A stretch of DNA of 64,000 bases, taken from NCBI GenBank assembly GCA_021234155.1, contig JAJEKV010000010.1, positions 9,650,406 to 9,714,405 of the forward strand. The letters are read 5' to 3'. A program made the translations under genes and the position numbers. The notes below the pieces were generated by a model. It ran no database searches. It saw nothing but the letters and a program-made list of their open reading frames with translations, and was not told the origin of the DNA. This DNA is from Isoetes taiwanensis (taxonomy: Eukaryota; Streptophyta; Lycopodiopsida; Isoetales; Isoetaceae). Positions 36,425 to 53,220 of the stretch are shown here, piece after piece. Numbering within the stretch: the first letter of the stretch is position 1; each line of letters opens with the position of its first letter.

Positions 36425-36560
36425 CTCTCTCTCTCTCTCTCTCTCTCTCTCTCTCTCTCTCTCTCTCTCTCTCTCTCTCTCTCTCTCTCTCTCTCTCTCT
36501 CTCTCTCTCTCTCTCTCTCTCTCTCTCTCTCTCTCTCTCTCTCTCTCTCTCTCTCTCTCT
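36425..36560. repeat. (TC)n microsatellite, about 136 bp
   Basis: An uninterrupted TC dinucleotide run directly follows the CATTT tail of LINE-B and directly precedes the Penelope-like RT segment. It is the first of several retroelement boundaries made of (TC)n in the window. Confidence 0.95.
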
Positions 36561-38049
36561 AACTTAAGGATGAGTTAGAAAACATATTTCCATATCTCCC
36601 TGTGACGGAACATAAGTTCCCATACATCATGGGCATTTTTAAAGCACACAAGTGCAACTTCAGATGGCTCACAAATGCTAGTGGTTGCCTTGTCTCAGAC
36701 ATAGGGCGTACTCTAACCACAATTTTTACTGAACTTGAGCCTATACTAAAAAGGGAGTGTGCTATGATGAAAAGGATTTATACACAATTCTTTAAGGTCA
36801 ATGCTTCCTCTTATTGGCCATGCAAATCCAATACGGAATTCTTCATAAATCTGCCTCCCAAAATTGAGAGCGTCTTCTGTTTAGACATTGCCAAGTGTTA
36901 TGAGAATATTCCACTAGTGGGTGAGGATGGAATCATTAACATCATGAATAAAATGATTGACATGGCCTTCAATAACCTTATCCCTGGAGAGTTTTTACTG
37001 TTCAAAATATCTGGCAACAATTTAAAATGCAAAGTTGTTAATCGTGTTCTTAAGGGTTGGAACGTCCTTGATAAAGAAACAATAAAGACATTGAATATGT
37101 GGCTGTTAAATTGTGGAATTGGGTGAAAGCATGTTAGGGCCTACATAAAAAATTACCAAAAAGGTACTTTTTTGTGTACTTCTGTGCAAGTACATAATTG
37201 TATTTTAAAGTACCTAGACTACAAGATTGACTAAAAGAAATTGTGTTATGTTCAAGAGTAGTAGTATATACATGTTGTAAGGTACTTTGTGATGTCAAGA
37301 AGATGTTAAGAACCCAAATATATCATCATCTTTGACTACCCAGAGTACTTTCCAGGTAGTTTCCAAAACATGTAGGCCCTAACATGCTCTTACCCAATTA
37401 TTAGATGTGGCGATGACCTTTGGCAGCAATTAACTTATGGTGCAATTGGTACTTGTCTTTTTATGAAATTTCTTTCTTCAAAAGATTAGCAGCTTTAGCT
37501 AGGTATGATTTGATGAAGCAATTTTCATATTCCTTCCGCTACATAGATGATTTATGTATTATAAACAATCCGAACGCCGGGATTTTCTTTCAAAATGAGC
37601 AACCTAGGGCTGCTGATAACCCCTATTGGATTTATCCAAGTGAACATTTAAAATTTGAGTTCCAATCTAATGACATGCTGCATGGCCATTTCCTTAGGAC
37701 ACAAATTGACTGCTCTGATCCAGATAATGTGTTGATTAATAAATACGATAAAAGGGGAGAGTTGGGCTTTAAGTTTGTACAATTCATTCACTTGAAGTCT
37801 AATAGGCCCATTGGAAATGCATACAAGGTTATCCTTTCGCAGGTTTTTCCATTGGTTTATTGCTGCAATTCGGTGGAGATTTTTTTAAAAGCATTGAAAT
37901 CCCTGATTGATGCATTCGTACTCAATGGCTTTCAAGAGCAAAGATTACGATCACTAGTGCGCAAATATTTGAAGAATAATGTATTCCCGGCATCCAAGTT
38001 CGACGTTAATGTGGCAGCGTCCTCAACTCTGTTAGAAATTAAACAATAG
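36561..38049 (+). pseudogene. Penelope/telomerase-like reverse transcriptase, 5'-truncated
   Basis: Frame 36602-37120 has GIFKAHKCNFRWLTNASGCL (the K-x-HK finger motif), then FCLDIAKCYENIPLVGEDG (motif A, DVxxLFxxIP type). After the MITE the sequence reads CGDDLWQQLTYGAIGT and, with a frameshift near 37430, LWCNWYLSFYEISFFKRL, FRYIDDLCIINNP (motif C, YIDD) and YPSEHLKFEFQ, ending at TAG 38047 after LLEIKQ. The order matches Penelope-like elements more than LINEs. No GIY-YIG endonuclease is visible. Placement is by motif reading only. Confidence 0.55.
37121..37395. mobile_element. 275-bp MITE with 26-bp inverted repeats inside the RT
   Basis: Ends are GGGTGAAAGCATGTTAGG... and ...CCTAACATGCTCTTACCC, an inverted repeat with an 18-bp perfect core (GCATGTTAGGGCCTACAT). 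AATT flanks both ends (37117-37120 and 37396-37399). Removal with one AATT restores the RT frame. Superfamily uncertain; a 4-bp AWWT-type duplication would suit Sola1, but AATT is palindromic and could be part of the repeat. Confidence 0.8.
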
Positions 38050-39122
38050 GTACTGTTGTGCTTCTGTTTAGATTAAAATTAACGTATCACTAAGTCCTTC
38101 TAGTGGAGCTCTCTTGTTATTGATATTTCCCTAAACATATGTACATTGGGACGTGTGTTGTATCCAGGTTTCCATTACAATGTTTCTGCTTATTCTTAGT
38201 GCATCCATTACCTAGTTTTTTAACAAAAAGGTTTTTTCACCACCATTGTTAAAATTTGCCGTATAATATTAACGAAAAATAAAAAACGAACTTTACTGAA
38301 AAACAGCGATTAGGGTTCTTGTTTTTGATCTGGCCGATTGACAGATGGTGGGATCGGATCCTTAACCTAAATCCATCCTGATATGTTTCACATACCGGTG
38401 GTCCATGCAAAGAACTCGTTTATGGGATTGACACTTGTCGGCTGCATACACAGGTAACGATTCACAGATTATGATTTAAATAGGGATAAGTGTTGGAATT
38501 TCGATTATCCAAATCCAGATTTGCTGTTATAACTCCTCTTAGGCACGTGGATTCATCATCCTCTCAAAATAACAGCAGATGATAAAGACTTTTTCAACCG
38601 GTACCAATTCATTATTCTCTAGAAAAATCCAGCAATTCTGAGATATGGCATCTACGTCAAGTTTTGTTGATGAAGAGGGATCTTCAAATCAGGTCTGGTA
38701 CAGTAATGATTGAATTAATTCTATTTAATTTTGGGTCTGGTAGAACAATCGGCATTTGTGGGCCAGATTTCTTTAAACTTCTTCTTCCTATAGTTATACT
38801 GGGTTTTTTATCCATTGTAAGTGGAATAGGTTAATCTAAGATTGATCTGTAGCGCAGTTGGTATGAATACTTCCTAGACCCAATTAGATGTCGGGCTGTT
38901 GGAATGGTTTAATCTATGATTTACCAGCAGGTTACTTGTACTCTTTACAGCCTAGACTTAAGTAATCATTGTTTTGTTTATTTGCCCTTGTTTGGTGACT
39001 GAAAATTGGCCTTGTTGCTGGATTGACACACTTGAACCACTGGCTTTTCGGATTATTGAAACCACTATGAACCTATTGTATGGCCATGTCTTATGTCTAC
39101 ATTTTTATATCTTTCTTTGCTA
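38050..39122. other. Unassigned AT-rich region
   Basis: No coding exon is convincing. A tRNA-like A-box string, 'tagcgcagttgg' (38852-38863), is present without a good B box. The region ends at the outer Helitron-type terminus at 39123. It may be the 3' remainder of the RT element or host intergenic DNA. Confidence 0.3.
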
Positions 39123-41149
39123 CTAGTTATGGTGCCCGGCGTTGCCGGGCTTTAGATCCATATGAACTCGAAATGGGGCTTTGGGCAATTTTTGCTAAAA
39201 TACATAGTGGAAGAGGAGTAAATAGTTTGATATATATTGCATTAATTTTGGTACGCTTGCAAATGTTCTAAAAATATATACCACTCCATTTATATTTGGA
39301 TGGGTATTCTATTAATCACCCCTGGAATAAATAGCATGCGGTTTTCGATGGGGGCAGTTTACACATATGTATTGTTTGTTCTTGTGTTGTTTATCATTTT
39401 CGAGTTTTTGTCTAGTGCTAATAATTATAGTCATATAACCTCAGTTCTATGACACTATGACACTATTCTATTCTATTCTACTAGTTATGAAGCCCAGCGT
39501 TGCTGGGCATAAGTTAGAAACTTGTAAATTTTTTCGCTACTATATTCGTCATATTGATGTAGACAACTATTCTATGATACATATTTCCACGCCTTACATA
39601 GCAGTCTAATATGAAAGGGGCAAATGAAGATCCATCAGGACATGGCACTAACATGAGATATTGAAACTATGTCTTTTTTATTATATGATATGATACATAC
39701 ATTACAATTACAATATGAGCATCATATTATAAAGGGAAATTTTATTATAAACAATAATTCCATTCTTTAATACTAAAGGGGGTTTTAAAGGTGTTGGAAA
39801 AATTAAATTATTTTTTGTTTGACAATATTTCTCTTAATGTTTCTAAGAAAAAATCATATTCTTTTTTGTTTGAAAATATTTCTCTTAATGCTTATGAGAA
39901 GAAAGAAAAACGATAATTAAGAAGGTTTTTCTGATCTATAAGATCAAACTGTACATATGGGTGTATTTCTTGTACATTGGGCAATAAGAGCGTGATATGC
40001 ATCGCAACATGTCGTATCCAAAAAGATTATTTAAGCTAAAACTGCCGTATACATTACATGCAACCCATTTTTAATGCAAGAAAAGGAATGTCCACTGTAA
40101 TTGCAGTCTGGCAATGGTAAAAAAGGAAAGCTTCAAATTGTTGTATCCTTTCAGTATTGTAAATGATAAAACTCAACCTGTTAAAGATCCTCTGCATAGC
40201 ATGTGAAACAAAGAACCTTACTTTGCATTGATGCTTTGTTGCTTTAACACTTTCATTTCCCCAACCTTGCATTTGTGTCAAAGGCCTTGAACTGGATCTC
40301 CCGCTTTATATATGCCACCAGACTTCCATATCTCCTTGAGACAATTCAGCTTGTCAGCCTTACTGAAATAGCAAAAAAGACAATTATCTGATATGAAATG
40401 AAATCCAATTCAGAAAATGCTACTTTTCGTAATCATTATCATACCATACAATTAGCTGTCATAATCATGAGAGCATCAGGCATTTTTACATTCCTTAAAT
40501 CCATTGATACAACTTTGCTTCATGGCATTTGCAGGATTTATGTTGCTAAACTATAGGTGAAGCTTAAGAGAATGTACAACAAATGTGAAATTGGGGTTGA
40601 AACCTACTTCTGGAAAGCAATAATCTCTTCTACGGTACCCCATTCAAGGCCATAAAATTATGCATGGCAACCTCTAAGGCTATTTGAACAAAGCCATAAA
40701 TTGTCATCTTTTCCTTGCAGAAAACCTTCCTGCCAAACTCTACGCCCAGATTCTACATTTATGGCAACACTAAAACCTTAGCTTCTCCAAGGCCATAGAA
40801 GCCTTTCTTACCTAAATCAAGATTGTTCCTTGCAATAAGTAGAAAATAAATCCGTGCTTGCGTTCATATGCAGTATAAACATATCTAGCAGGTTAACTAA
40901 GATTTTCTAAGCCCATATACTGAGAAATGGCCTGGAATATTTTACTCTGCTTTTGCATGATGCTGGATGTGACATCAACATTTCATTTGCAACCAACGCC
41001 AAGTTCCCAAGGCTGATATAGTCAATGGATCAGCAGAGCAGGCTAGGTATGGTTGCAGAGTAGGCTAGTTATTGTTTGAGATTAAATGTTTGTCAATAGA
41101 GCCCATTTTTGCTCATAGGAGATCGCTCTTCTGTATTCTCCTAACTTAG

Positions 41150-52857: not shown

Positions 52858-52898
52858 CTCTCTCTCTCTCTCTCTCTCTCTCTCTCTCTCTCTCTCTC
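52858..52898. repeat. (TC)n microsatellite after the SINE
   Basis: A 41-bp TC run that continues the microsatellite interrupted by the SINE. Confidence 0.95.
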
Positions 52899-53154
52899 AG
52901 GTTTCCCACATGCATGCAAATATTTTATCTCTCGTGCTATACGGAGAGAGATAAAATTTGTACGTATTTCATGAGAGAGGCATTAGAGATAATAATCTCT
53001 AATAATCTCTAATAATCTCTCAAGGCTTAACCCCCCCTTAGTTAGCATTTTATTTCTACTGACGATATCTTGGCAAAAGGGCGGCGTGGGTGTGCTTAAG
53101 AATAAGAAGGGGAAAATAAGGGACAAGCAGGGGAAAATAAGGGACAAGCTGTGT
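52899..53154. other. Short spacer with small tandem repeats
   Basis: Contains 'taataatctc' repeated three times (about 52988-53020) and 'aggggaaaataagggacaag' twice (about 53108-53146). No gene. Confidence 0.6.
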
Positions 53155-53220
53155 TCTCTCTCTCTCCCTCCCTCCCTCCCTCCCTCCCTCCCTCCCTCCC
53201 TCCCTCTCTCTCTCTCTCTG
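53155..53220. repeat. (TC)n / (TCCC)n microsatellite
   Basis: TC, then about ten TCCC units, then TC again, directly followed by the LINE-E fragment. Confidence 0.95.

Follow-up and report, generated by a model that had tools for sequence, protein, structure and literature searches.

Head-to-tail chains of LINEs and SINEs joined at (TC)n arrays in the genome of Isoetes taiwanensis

The genome of Isoetes taiwanensis contains chains of retroelements whose members meet at (TC)n arrays, and one such chain runs through the 64,000-nucleotide stretch analysed here (contig JAJEKV010000010.1, positions 9,650,406 to 9,714,405; G000:C908:9650406-9714405 in our numbering, in which C-numbers denote contigs and L-numbers loci; hereafter the window). 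It consists of long interspersed elements (LINEs), a tRNA-like short interspersed element (SINE) and a Penelope-like element. Our analysis, which covers the window and the whole assembly (1,658,258,908 bases in 1110 contigs), makes it likely that the LINEs and the SINE carry (TC)n tails and prefer such tails as landing sites, with head-to-tail chains as the outcome. (TC)n-targeting LINEs are known in animals and include R1-clade LINEs.

In the mechanism that we propose, an endonuclease-type LINE group and at least one tRNA-like SINE would end 3' in a (TC)n tail. The endonuclease may nick (TC)n on its GA strand, or else a short pyrimidine site; the primer would end in GA and pair with the RNA at its TC end. 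An early stop of reverse transcription may be common and would leave a 5'-truncated element joined to the upstream TC. Each insertion would also leave a fresh TC tail of the same orientation downstream, a possible next landing site, and repeated rounds would give rise to non-nested head-to-tail chains such as LINE-C, TC, LINE-D, TC, SINE, TC.

SINE copies and their empty sites

The 3' end of the SINE is GACGTAAAAAATACA, followed by (TC)n. We read the best 40 of 333 candidate copies (38 fetched, the window copy and one in L002), and in all 40 a TC run of 5-31 units lies no more than 30 bp from the end of the SINE, nearly always directly after it. The junction is exactly TACA followed by TCTC in 34 of the 40; five more tails start with T and one with C. 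Upstream of the SINE, a TC run of at least 5 units within 25 bp is found in 19 copies and is absent in 21. The latter include duplicates (L040, of L031; L048 and L055, of L032, behind a (TATC)n tail), L030, which has pyrimidine-rich surroundings, and L038, which stands behind a TTTC/TC tail. A separate count of the SINE 5' motif finds (TC)4 within 30 bp upstream in 22/44 cases on the minus strand (if each anchor is counted once, as the ten listed were) and in 13/29 on the plus strand among the matches listed. As background, (TC)4 lies upstream of 2.0% of positions in the Penelope-like loci and of 0-0.4% where the window is quiet.

The SINEs also have LINE neighbours. In 7 of the 40 loci (L024, L025, L027, L037, L043, L049 and L050) a plus-strand LINE follows 1-130 bp after the SINE tail, as detected by tblastn, and in L058 a LINE after the SINE tail was seen by eye. 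By eye, the SINE seems to have tRNA-like A and B boxes, though ARAGORN reports no tRNA in it, and a GACGTAA-type end seems to precede the TC in both SINE and LINE.

Host flanks were joined for 15 of the 21 SINE sites that lack upstream TC, and the genome was searched with them (best 40 of 3052 candidates). This search yields at least 41 matches, which cover 6 of the 15 sites and span 211-240 bp, too short to hold the SINE. None of the 15 empty paralogues that were fetched contains a TC array, the longest row of TC or GA anywhere in them being 3 units. At these six sites, therefore, the tail arrived with the element. The targets are TGTCTC^ATGA in L051 (four empty sites read, tail TC6), CTTTC^TCTTTG in L029 (four, TC15), TCTTTCA^ACAAG in L047 (three, TC6), CCTCC-(AT lost)-TC^AAAGC in L002 (two, TC10) and, in L046, a loss of 11 bp followed by TATTACC (one, TC16). 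The sixth, L023, has the target AACACTACTATAATGG, without TC (one empty site read), and a 5-bp duplication, ACTAT, around the SINE and its (TC)5. Short pyrimidine target sites are thus frequent at these insertions, but dispensable.

Landing inside an older TC array is indicated, with the reserve that the left flank is short, by a pair of loci that appear to be empty and filled. L116 has no SINE and contains (TC)n and related repeats; L033 is filled and reads (TC)32, SINE, (TC)18. On the right, the two loci match over 224 bp (91.5%). The left match is 88 bp long, about 63 bp of which is the TC itself, and outside the TC 24 of 25 bp agree. The pair was spotted by eye; of the 38 candidate pairs that an automatic search proposed among the fetched loci, none was accepted as such. 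L028 and L039 compared with L089 and L117 were also considered as empty and filled sites and rejected, only the right side being matched.

These sites bear on the view that (TC)n is purely a pre-existing target, the elements themselves ending in CATTT, CACTT, TTTC or TACA. The L116/L033 pair fits such a view, as do the differing LINE tails that meet TC, and microsatellite-targeting LINEs are known (PMC4640811 and PMC2887409; here and below, statements on published systems refer to the accessible parts of the papers cited). For the SINE it is contradicted at the six sites whose empty paralogues lack a TC array. In addition, the pattern of a microsatellite-specific element, with TC on both flanks of most copies and in the empty sites, is not seen for the SINE: more than half of the copies have no upstream run, yet all have a downstream one, and the phase of the junction is almost fixed. 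We regard pure targeting as quite improbable.

An earlier note on this DNA, made from the letters alone, had suggested that the shared boundaries reflect a common target or the reuse of tails as landing sites. Reuse is borne out, since SINE tails are element-borne at the six sites and about half of the SINE copies lie directly downstream of TC. The common target holds in part: the copies behind TC and the L116/L033 pair speak for it, and the six sites without a TC array before insertion speak against it.

LINE ends and TC arrays across the genome

The assembly contains 5686 starts of (TC) arrays of at least 10 units (2822 and 2864 by strand). In 563 cases the array starts right after ATTTCA and in 437 after TTCATT, the two ends of a (CATTT)n LINE tail, which together make 1000 of the 5686. 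About 3 would be expected by our estimate if the six bases were random, and the backward-pattern control gives 0. All 1000 arrays are probably LINE tails, to judge from the bases before them.

Sixty loci at listed arrays were read, as 20 tiles of 10 kb and 40 pieces of about 0.9 kb or slightly more. Together with the window they hold 87 distinct arrays of at least 10 units, 27 of which (in 15 CT-rich loci and L011) were dropped. The remaining 60, three of them in the window, comprise 21 directly after a LINE 3' end or tail, 7 after the SINE, 2 after a third element and 30 that were left unclassed automatically. Inspection by eye places several of these 30 behind the third element, a second SINE or SINE stubs. 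Target duplications were sought around the arrays, mostly with chance-level matches, and the 9-bp CAATTTGTT of L006 is not clean. At L014:4650-4902 (TC orientation), the two copies of a 38-bp direct repeat, which differ at one position, surround a 10-bp piece and (TC)59, an arrangement that resembles a tail-only insertion.

The LINE 3' ends share a layout in which a short hairpin stands before the tail and is followed by (CATTT)n, (CACTT)n or (TTTC)n and then by (TC)n; about 100 nt, including the conserved hairpin, precede the simple-repeat end, where an RTE-clade LINE would have a very short 3' untranslated region consisting of simple repeats. In an alignment of 15 LINE ends chosen for showing the motif, 96.0% of the pair cells form, four pairs have changes in both partners, and a pair that is A-U in eight ends is G-C in the other seven. 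The share paired and the covariation score are reached in none of 500 shuffles, the count of pairs changed on both sides in 26 and the count of pair types in 380. When four single 3' ends are folded and compared with shuffles, LINE-C and LINE-D are distinct (z about -3), and LINE-B and the SINE are indistinct (z -0.7 and -1.1). The LINE in L003 contains Exo_endo_phos (5.3e-07) and RVT_1 (8e-19) in neighbouring open reading frame pieces, that is, an APE-like endonuclease plus a reverse transcriptase (RT), as expected of an RTE-clade LINE.

The hairpin motif GATGGTCTCATAGACG occurs 47 and 39 times on the two strands. It is followed within 2-32 bp by (TC)4 at 25/47 forward anchors and at 25/34 reverse anchors among the matches listed, a total of 50/81; the 32-bp range misses TC behind longer CATTT runs. 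To the question whether copies elsewhere mostly lack TC flanks, the answer is therefore no for the SINE, with 3' TC in 40/40, and no for this hairpin type of LINE, and it is yes for the Penelope-like element (see below). Because of the SINE case and the tail sequences themselves, the LINE tails are probably element-borne as well.

The arrays assigned to LINE tails have a marked strand direction. For 189 arrays in listing order, from 200 listed of the 1000 and on contigs up to C929, neighbours on the same and on opposite strands number 30:1 at less than 30 kb, 10:4 at 30-100 kb, 14:8 at 100 kb-1 Mb and 18:20 beyond 1 Mb. A first strand count of 38:0 (0.5-20 kb) and 15:0 (below) was rejected, since clusters on C11, C30 (from 290 kb) and C32 proved to be CT-rich satellites; without these satellite arrays (25 of 100 removed) it becomes 33:0 at less than 30 kb, 2:3 at 30-100 kb and 5:4 beyond. 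Degenerate CT-rich tracts confined to one strand are present on C11, C30:290-325 kb and C32:307-324 kb of G000.

The counts establish two patterns statistically: TC stands immediately 5' of about half of the SINE insertions, and the LINE-tail arrays cluster on one strand. Both are at odds with the idea that the elements insert anywhere and that their tails expand, upstream TC coming only from landing in crowded regions. This idea agrees with the element-borne SINE tails, with TC runs that expand in place and with the short left flank of the sole pair for landing in TC, and lepidopteran RTE elements behave so (PMC2887409). Against it, half of the SINE 5' ends lie just behind TC compared with a background of 0-2%, and the L116/L033 pair also contradicts it. 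We judge it improbable.

The chain in the window

The earlier note had named (TC)n tracts between LINE-B and the Penelope-like RT, between LINE-C and LINE-D, on both sides of the SINE and before LINE-E, and every one of them is present. Plus-strand (TC)n runs of at least 10 bp lie at 36424-36560 (68 units), 49459-49591 (66), 52659-52668 (5), 52857-52898 (21), 53155-53166 (6) and 53205-53218 (7), with a short one at 42795-42804. The only such run on the minus strand is (GA)5 at 14315. The tracts are far above chance: TCTCTCTCTC is counted 151 times compared with 0.22 expected from shuffles.

All members of the chain lie on the plus strand. It begins with LINE-B, whose 5' part (28000-30041; ORF1-like region, endonuclease and start of the RT) is identified by tblastx to LINE-C and LINE-D, its start being approximate and ORF1 read by eye. 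This piece and the 3' part look like one LINE interrupted by a CACTA-type DNA transposon (30042-34771), which we read from its ends CACTACAAGAG and CTCTTGTAGTG and a 3-bp duplication, CTC. The 3' part (34772-36411) carries the RT (Pfam RVT_1, 2.1e-29), a C-terminal Cys/His motif and the 3' hairpin at about 36369-36407. The tail, CATTTCATTTCA of the CATTT type (36412-36423), runs into the (TC)68 array (36424-36560). The LINE-B protein has no match among viral contigs.

Next comes the 5'-truncated Penelope-like element (36561-42814), in the pieces 36561-37120, 37396-39122 and 42216-42814, separated by two later inserts: an inverted-repeat, MITE-like one at 37121-37395 and one at 39123-42215. Up to 42767 the pieces match contig C100 at 98-100% identity, and the inserts are absent there; the stretch 42768-42814 is assigned through 83% similarity to L059. 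The short TC/CCCC tract before LINE-C (42795-42819) is part of this element, because the other copy, in L059, has the tract too. The union of the two LINE-B pieces and the assignment of this short tract are corrections to the earlier note, as is the (AAT)7 end of LINE-A described below.

LINE-C (42820-49415; tblastx, RVT_1 2.1e-15) is 5'-truncated and split at about 45058-48153 by another insert. Its tail, (CACTT)8.6 (49416-49458), meets the (TC)66 array (49459-49591), after which LINE-D (49592-52638) follows, truncated within the endonuclease domain and ending in a (TTTC)n tail, from near 52640, that passes into (TC)5 (52639-52668). Thus the tails of LINE-B, LINE-C and LINE-D differ and all meet TC, as had been noticed. 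The tRNA-like SINE (SINE1, 52669-52856) has TC on each side, and its (TC)21 tail (52857-52898) is followed by a 256-bp spacer (52899-53154), the start of which weakly resembles by eye the third, inverted-repeat element (CACATGC...). A (TC)6-(CTCC)n-(TC)7 tract (53155-53218) then precedes LINE-E (53219-53503), which is 5'-truncated in the RT and has tblastx matches in LINE-B, LINE-C and LINE-D that start at about 53255.

The chain is not one element duplicated in tandem, since the main aligned segments of the window LINEs are only about 32-71% identical in amino acids (tblastx). The Penelope-like copy and LINE-D begin directly after TC as 5'-truncated pieces, and the first tblastx similarity of LINE-E lies within about 40 bp of TC. 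Such starts would also be expected if the TC tails of separate elements recombined or mediated deletions that fused elements head to tail, a process that may accompany insertion. The same orientation is expected from it too, and circles plus recombination have been proposed for the SaTar arrays of microsatellite-targeted elements (PMC5907723). It would, however, need breakpoints near the SINE start every time, given that SINEs keeping their 5' region lie within 30 bp of TC, and L033 retains its right flank and 25 bp to the left of the TC. As the source of the chains it seems rather unlikely.

Elsewhere in the window, positions 1-9900 hold diverged repeat copies, partly about 1.1 kb apart and mostly 70-90% alike. 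A common start, ACTAGTAA.GGTGCCCAGCGTTGCTGGGC, is found at 20119, 24552, 39480 and 45056; the insert within LINE-C opens with one such copy, and the insert at 39123 with a related start.

The Penelope-like element and points against the proposal

Penelope-like elements that insert into (CA)n are known from green algae. Here, the best 40 of 109 candidate copies were scored and the upstream ends of 20 were read. The closely matching copy on C100 continues past the position of the window copy's junction with (TC)68, and in all, 19 of the 20 copies continue through the junction without TC, so the TC boundary is not a trait of the Penelope-like family. The remaining copy, L068, starts close after (TC)113. 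In L062 the likeness lasts for about 100 bp and ends at a point that has no TC; a few hundred bp upstream stands a LINE tail. Truncated Penelope-like copies may have been caught by TC arrays.

Several observations count against the proposal of TC tails that serve as landing sites. LINE-A, which extends to about 19694 in the window, has an (AAT)7 tail without TC, and 31 of the 81 counted hairpin anchors have no (TC)4 within 32 bp. Nine of the 15 joined-flank sites have no match among the best 40 of 3052 candidates. L116 and L033, the sole pair for landing in older TC, diverge beyond 25 bp on the left save for one common short repeat. No LINE copy has a complete empty/filled pair: L136 only shows one LINE's right flank without TC, and L135 and L137 do carry TC there. 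Tandem duplications (L006-L008; L032/L048/L055; L031/L040) contribute to the same-strand clusters. In addition, L028, L039 and L089 occupy the same spot of a repeat family with TC runs of 6, 6 and 64 units; TC runs therefore lengthen in place, and tract lengths tell little.

Other chained elements

The third element, with ends like GCGTTGGCCACATG and CATGTGGCCAACGC, is, by eye, flanked by (TC)n and found in chains at L010:3520-4955 (TC orientation) and in L002, L035, L045, L091, L108, L111 and L117. A second tRNA-like SINE, which ends close to GTGACGTTAAAACTAC and continues into (TATC)n or (TC)n, is also chained (L003, L032, L055, L087 and L093, by eye). Stubs of about 15-50 bp from LINE or SINE 3' ends stand between two TC arrays in L010:4982-5028, in L032, L048 and L055, and in L095 and L096.

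Relation to known systems

The closest likeness to the Isoetes elements as regards tails is in the lepidopteran RTE-clade LINEs (Tay et al. 2010, PMC2887409), which account for 10% of the lepidopteran microsatellites in GenBank. Their 3' simple repeat lies inside the target duplications and so did not pre-exist, and many copies are truncated; a 3' repeat that was not there before and frequent truncation are shared with Isoetes. Their insertion is apparently not sequence-specific, however, and the accessible part of that paper describes neither chains nor landing in their own tails. The Bov-B LINE/SINE pair likewise has microsatellite-like 3' ends that may aid priming, but its targets rarely resemble its own 3' repeats (PMC13295347), whereas here about half of the SINE copies are flanked by TC upstream. 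Among microsatellite-specific LINEs, Togen at (TG)n and Dong at (TAA)n also use simple repeats as landing sites (PMC4640811, PMC2887409); for them the repeat is described as the target, whereas here the tail itself is the repeat.

As regards chains, the likeness is to SaTar, the microsatellite-targeted Mutator-like element (MULE) arrays of guayule and rice, in which non-nested unrelated elements are joined at microsatellites and some copies lie at ordinary sites (PMC5907723). SaTar elements are DNA elements with terminal inverted repeats (TIRs), mostly at (TA)n, whereas the Isoetes chains are built of 3'-tailed retroelements, LINEs and a SINE, and run in one common direction. The SaTar hallmark, TIR elements with 10-bp duplications outside microsatellites, is not found in the chain members studied, which are LINEs and the SINE; only the third element, with its imperfect inverted ends, recalls SaTar elements.

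No LINE/SINE group in which tail and preferred target coincide was recognised in open-licence PubMed Central titles and abstract openings. Each half is already known, from microsatellite-seeding RTE tails (PMC2887409) and from SaTar arrays (PMC5907723), and within these sources it is the combination that is new. We put forward tentatively, as quite possible, a self-propagating landing-site system: the LINE group and the SINE or SINEs would have made their 3' tail their own preferred target, insertion begetting insertion in one direction, and the resulting (TC)n archipelagos would trap Penelope-like and TIR elements and account for much of the TC microsatellite content of the genome. Since tail and preferred target would be the same simple repeat, and filled sites and dozens of empty paralogues occur in one genome, the pairing of tail and target becomes countable. 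Such a system would offer a source of TC microsatellites and a reason for the one-strand clustering of retroelements, and it would be, among retroelements, a parallel to the SaTar arrays known from flowering plants.

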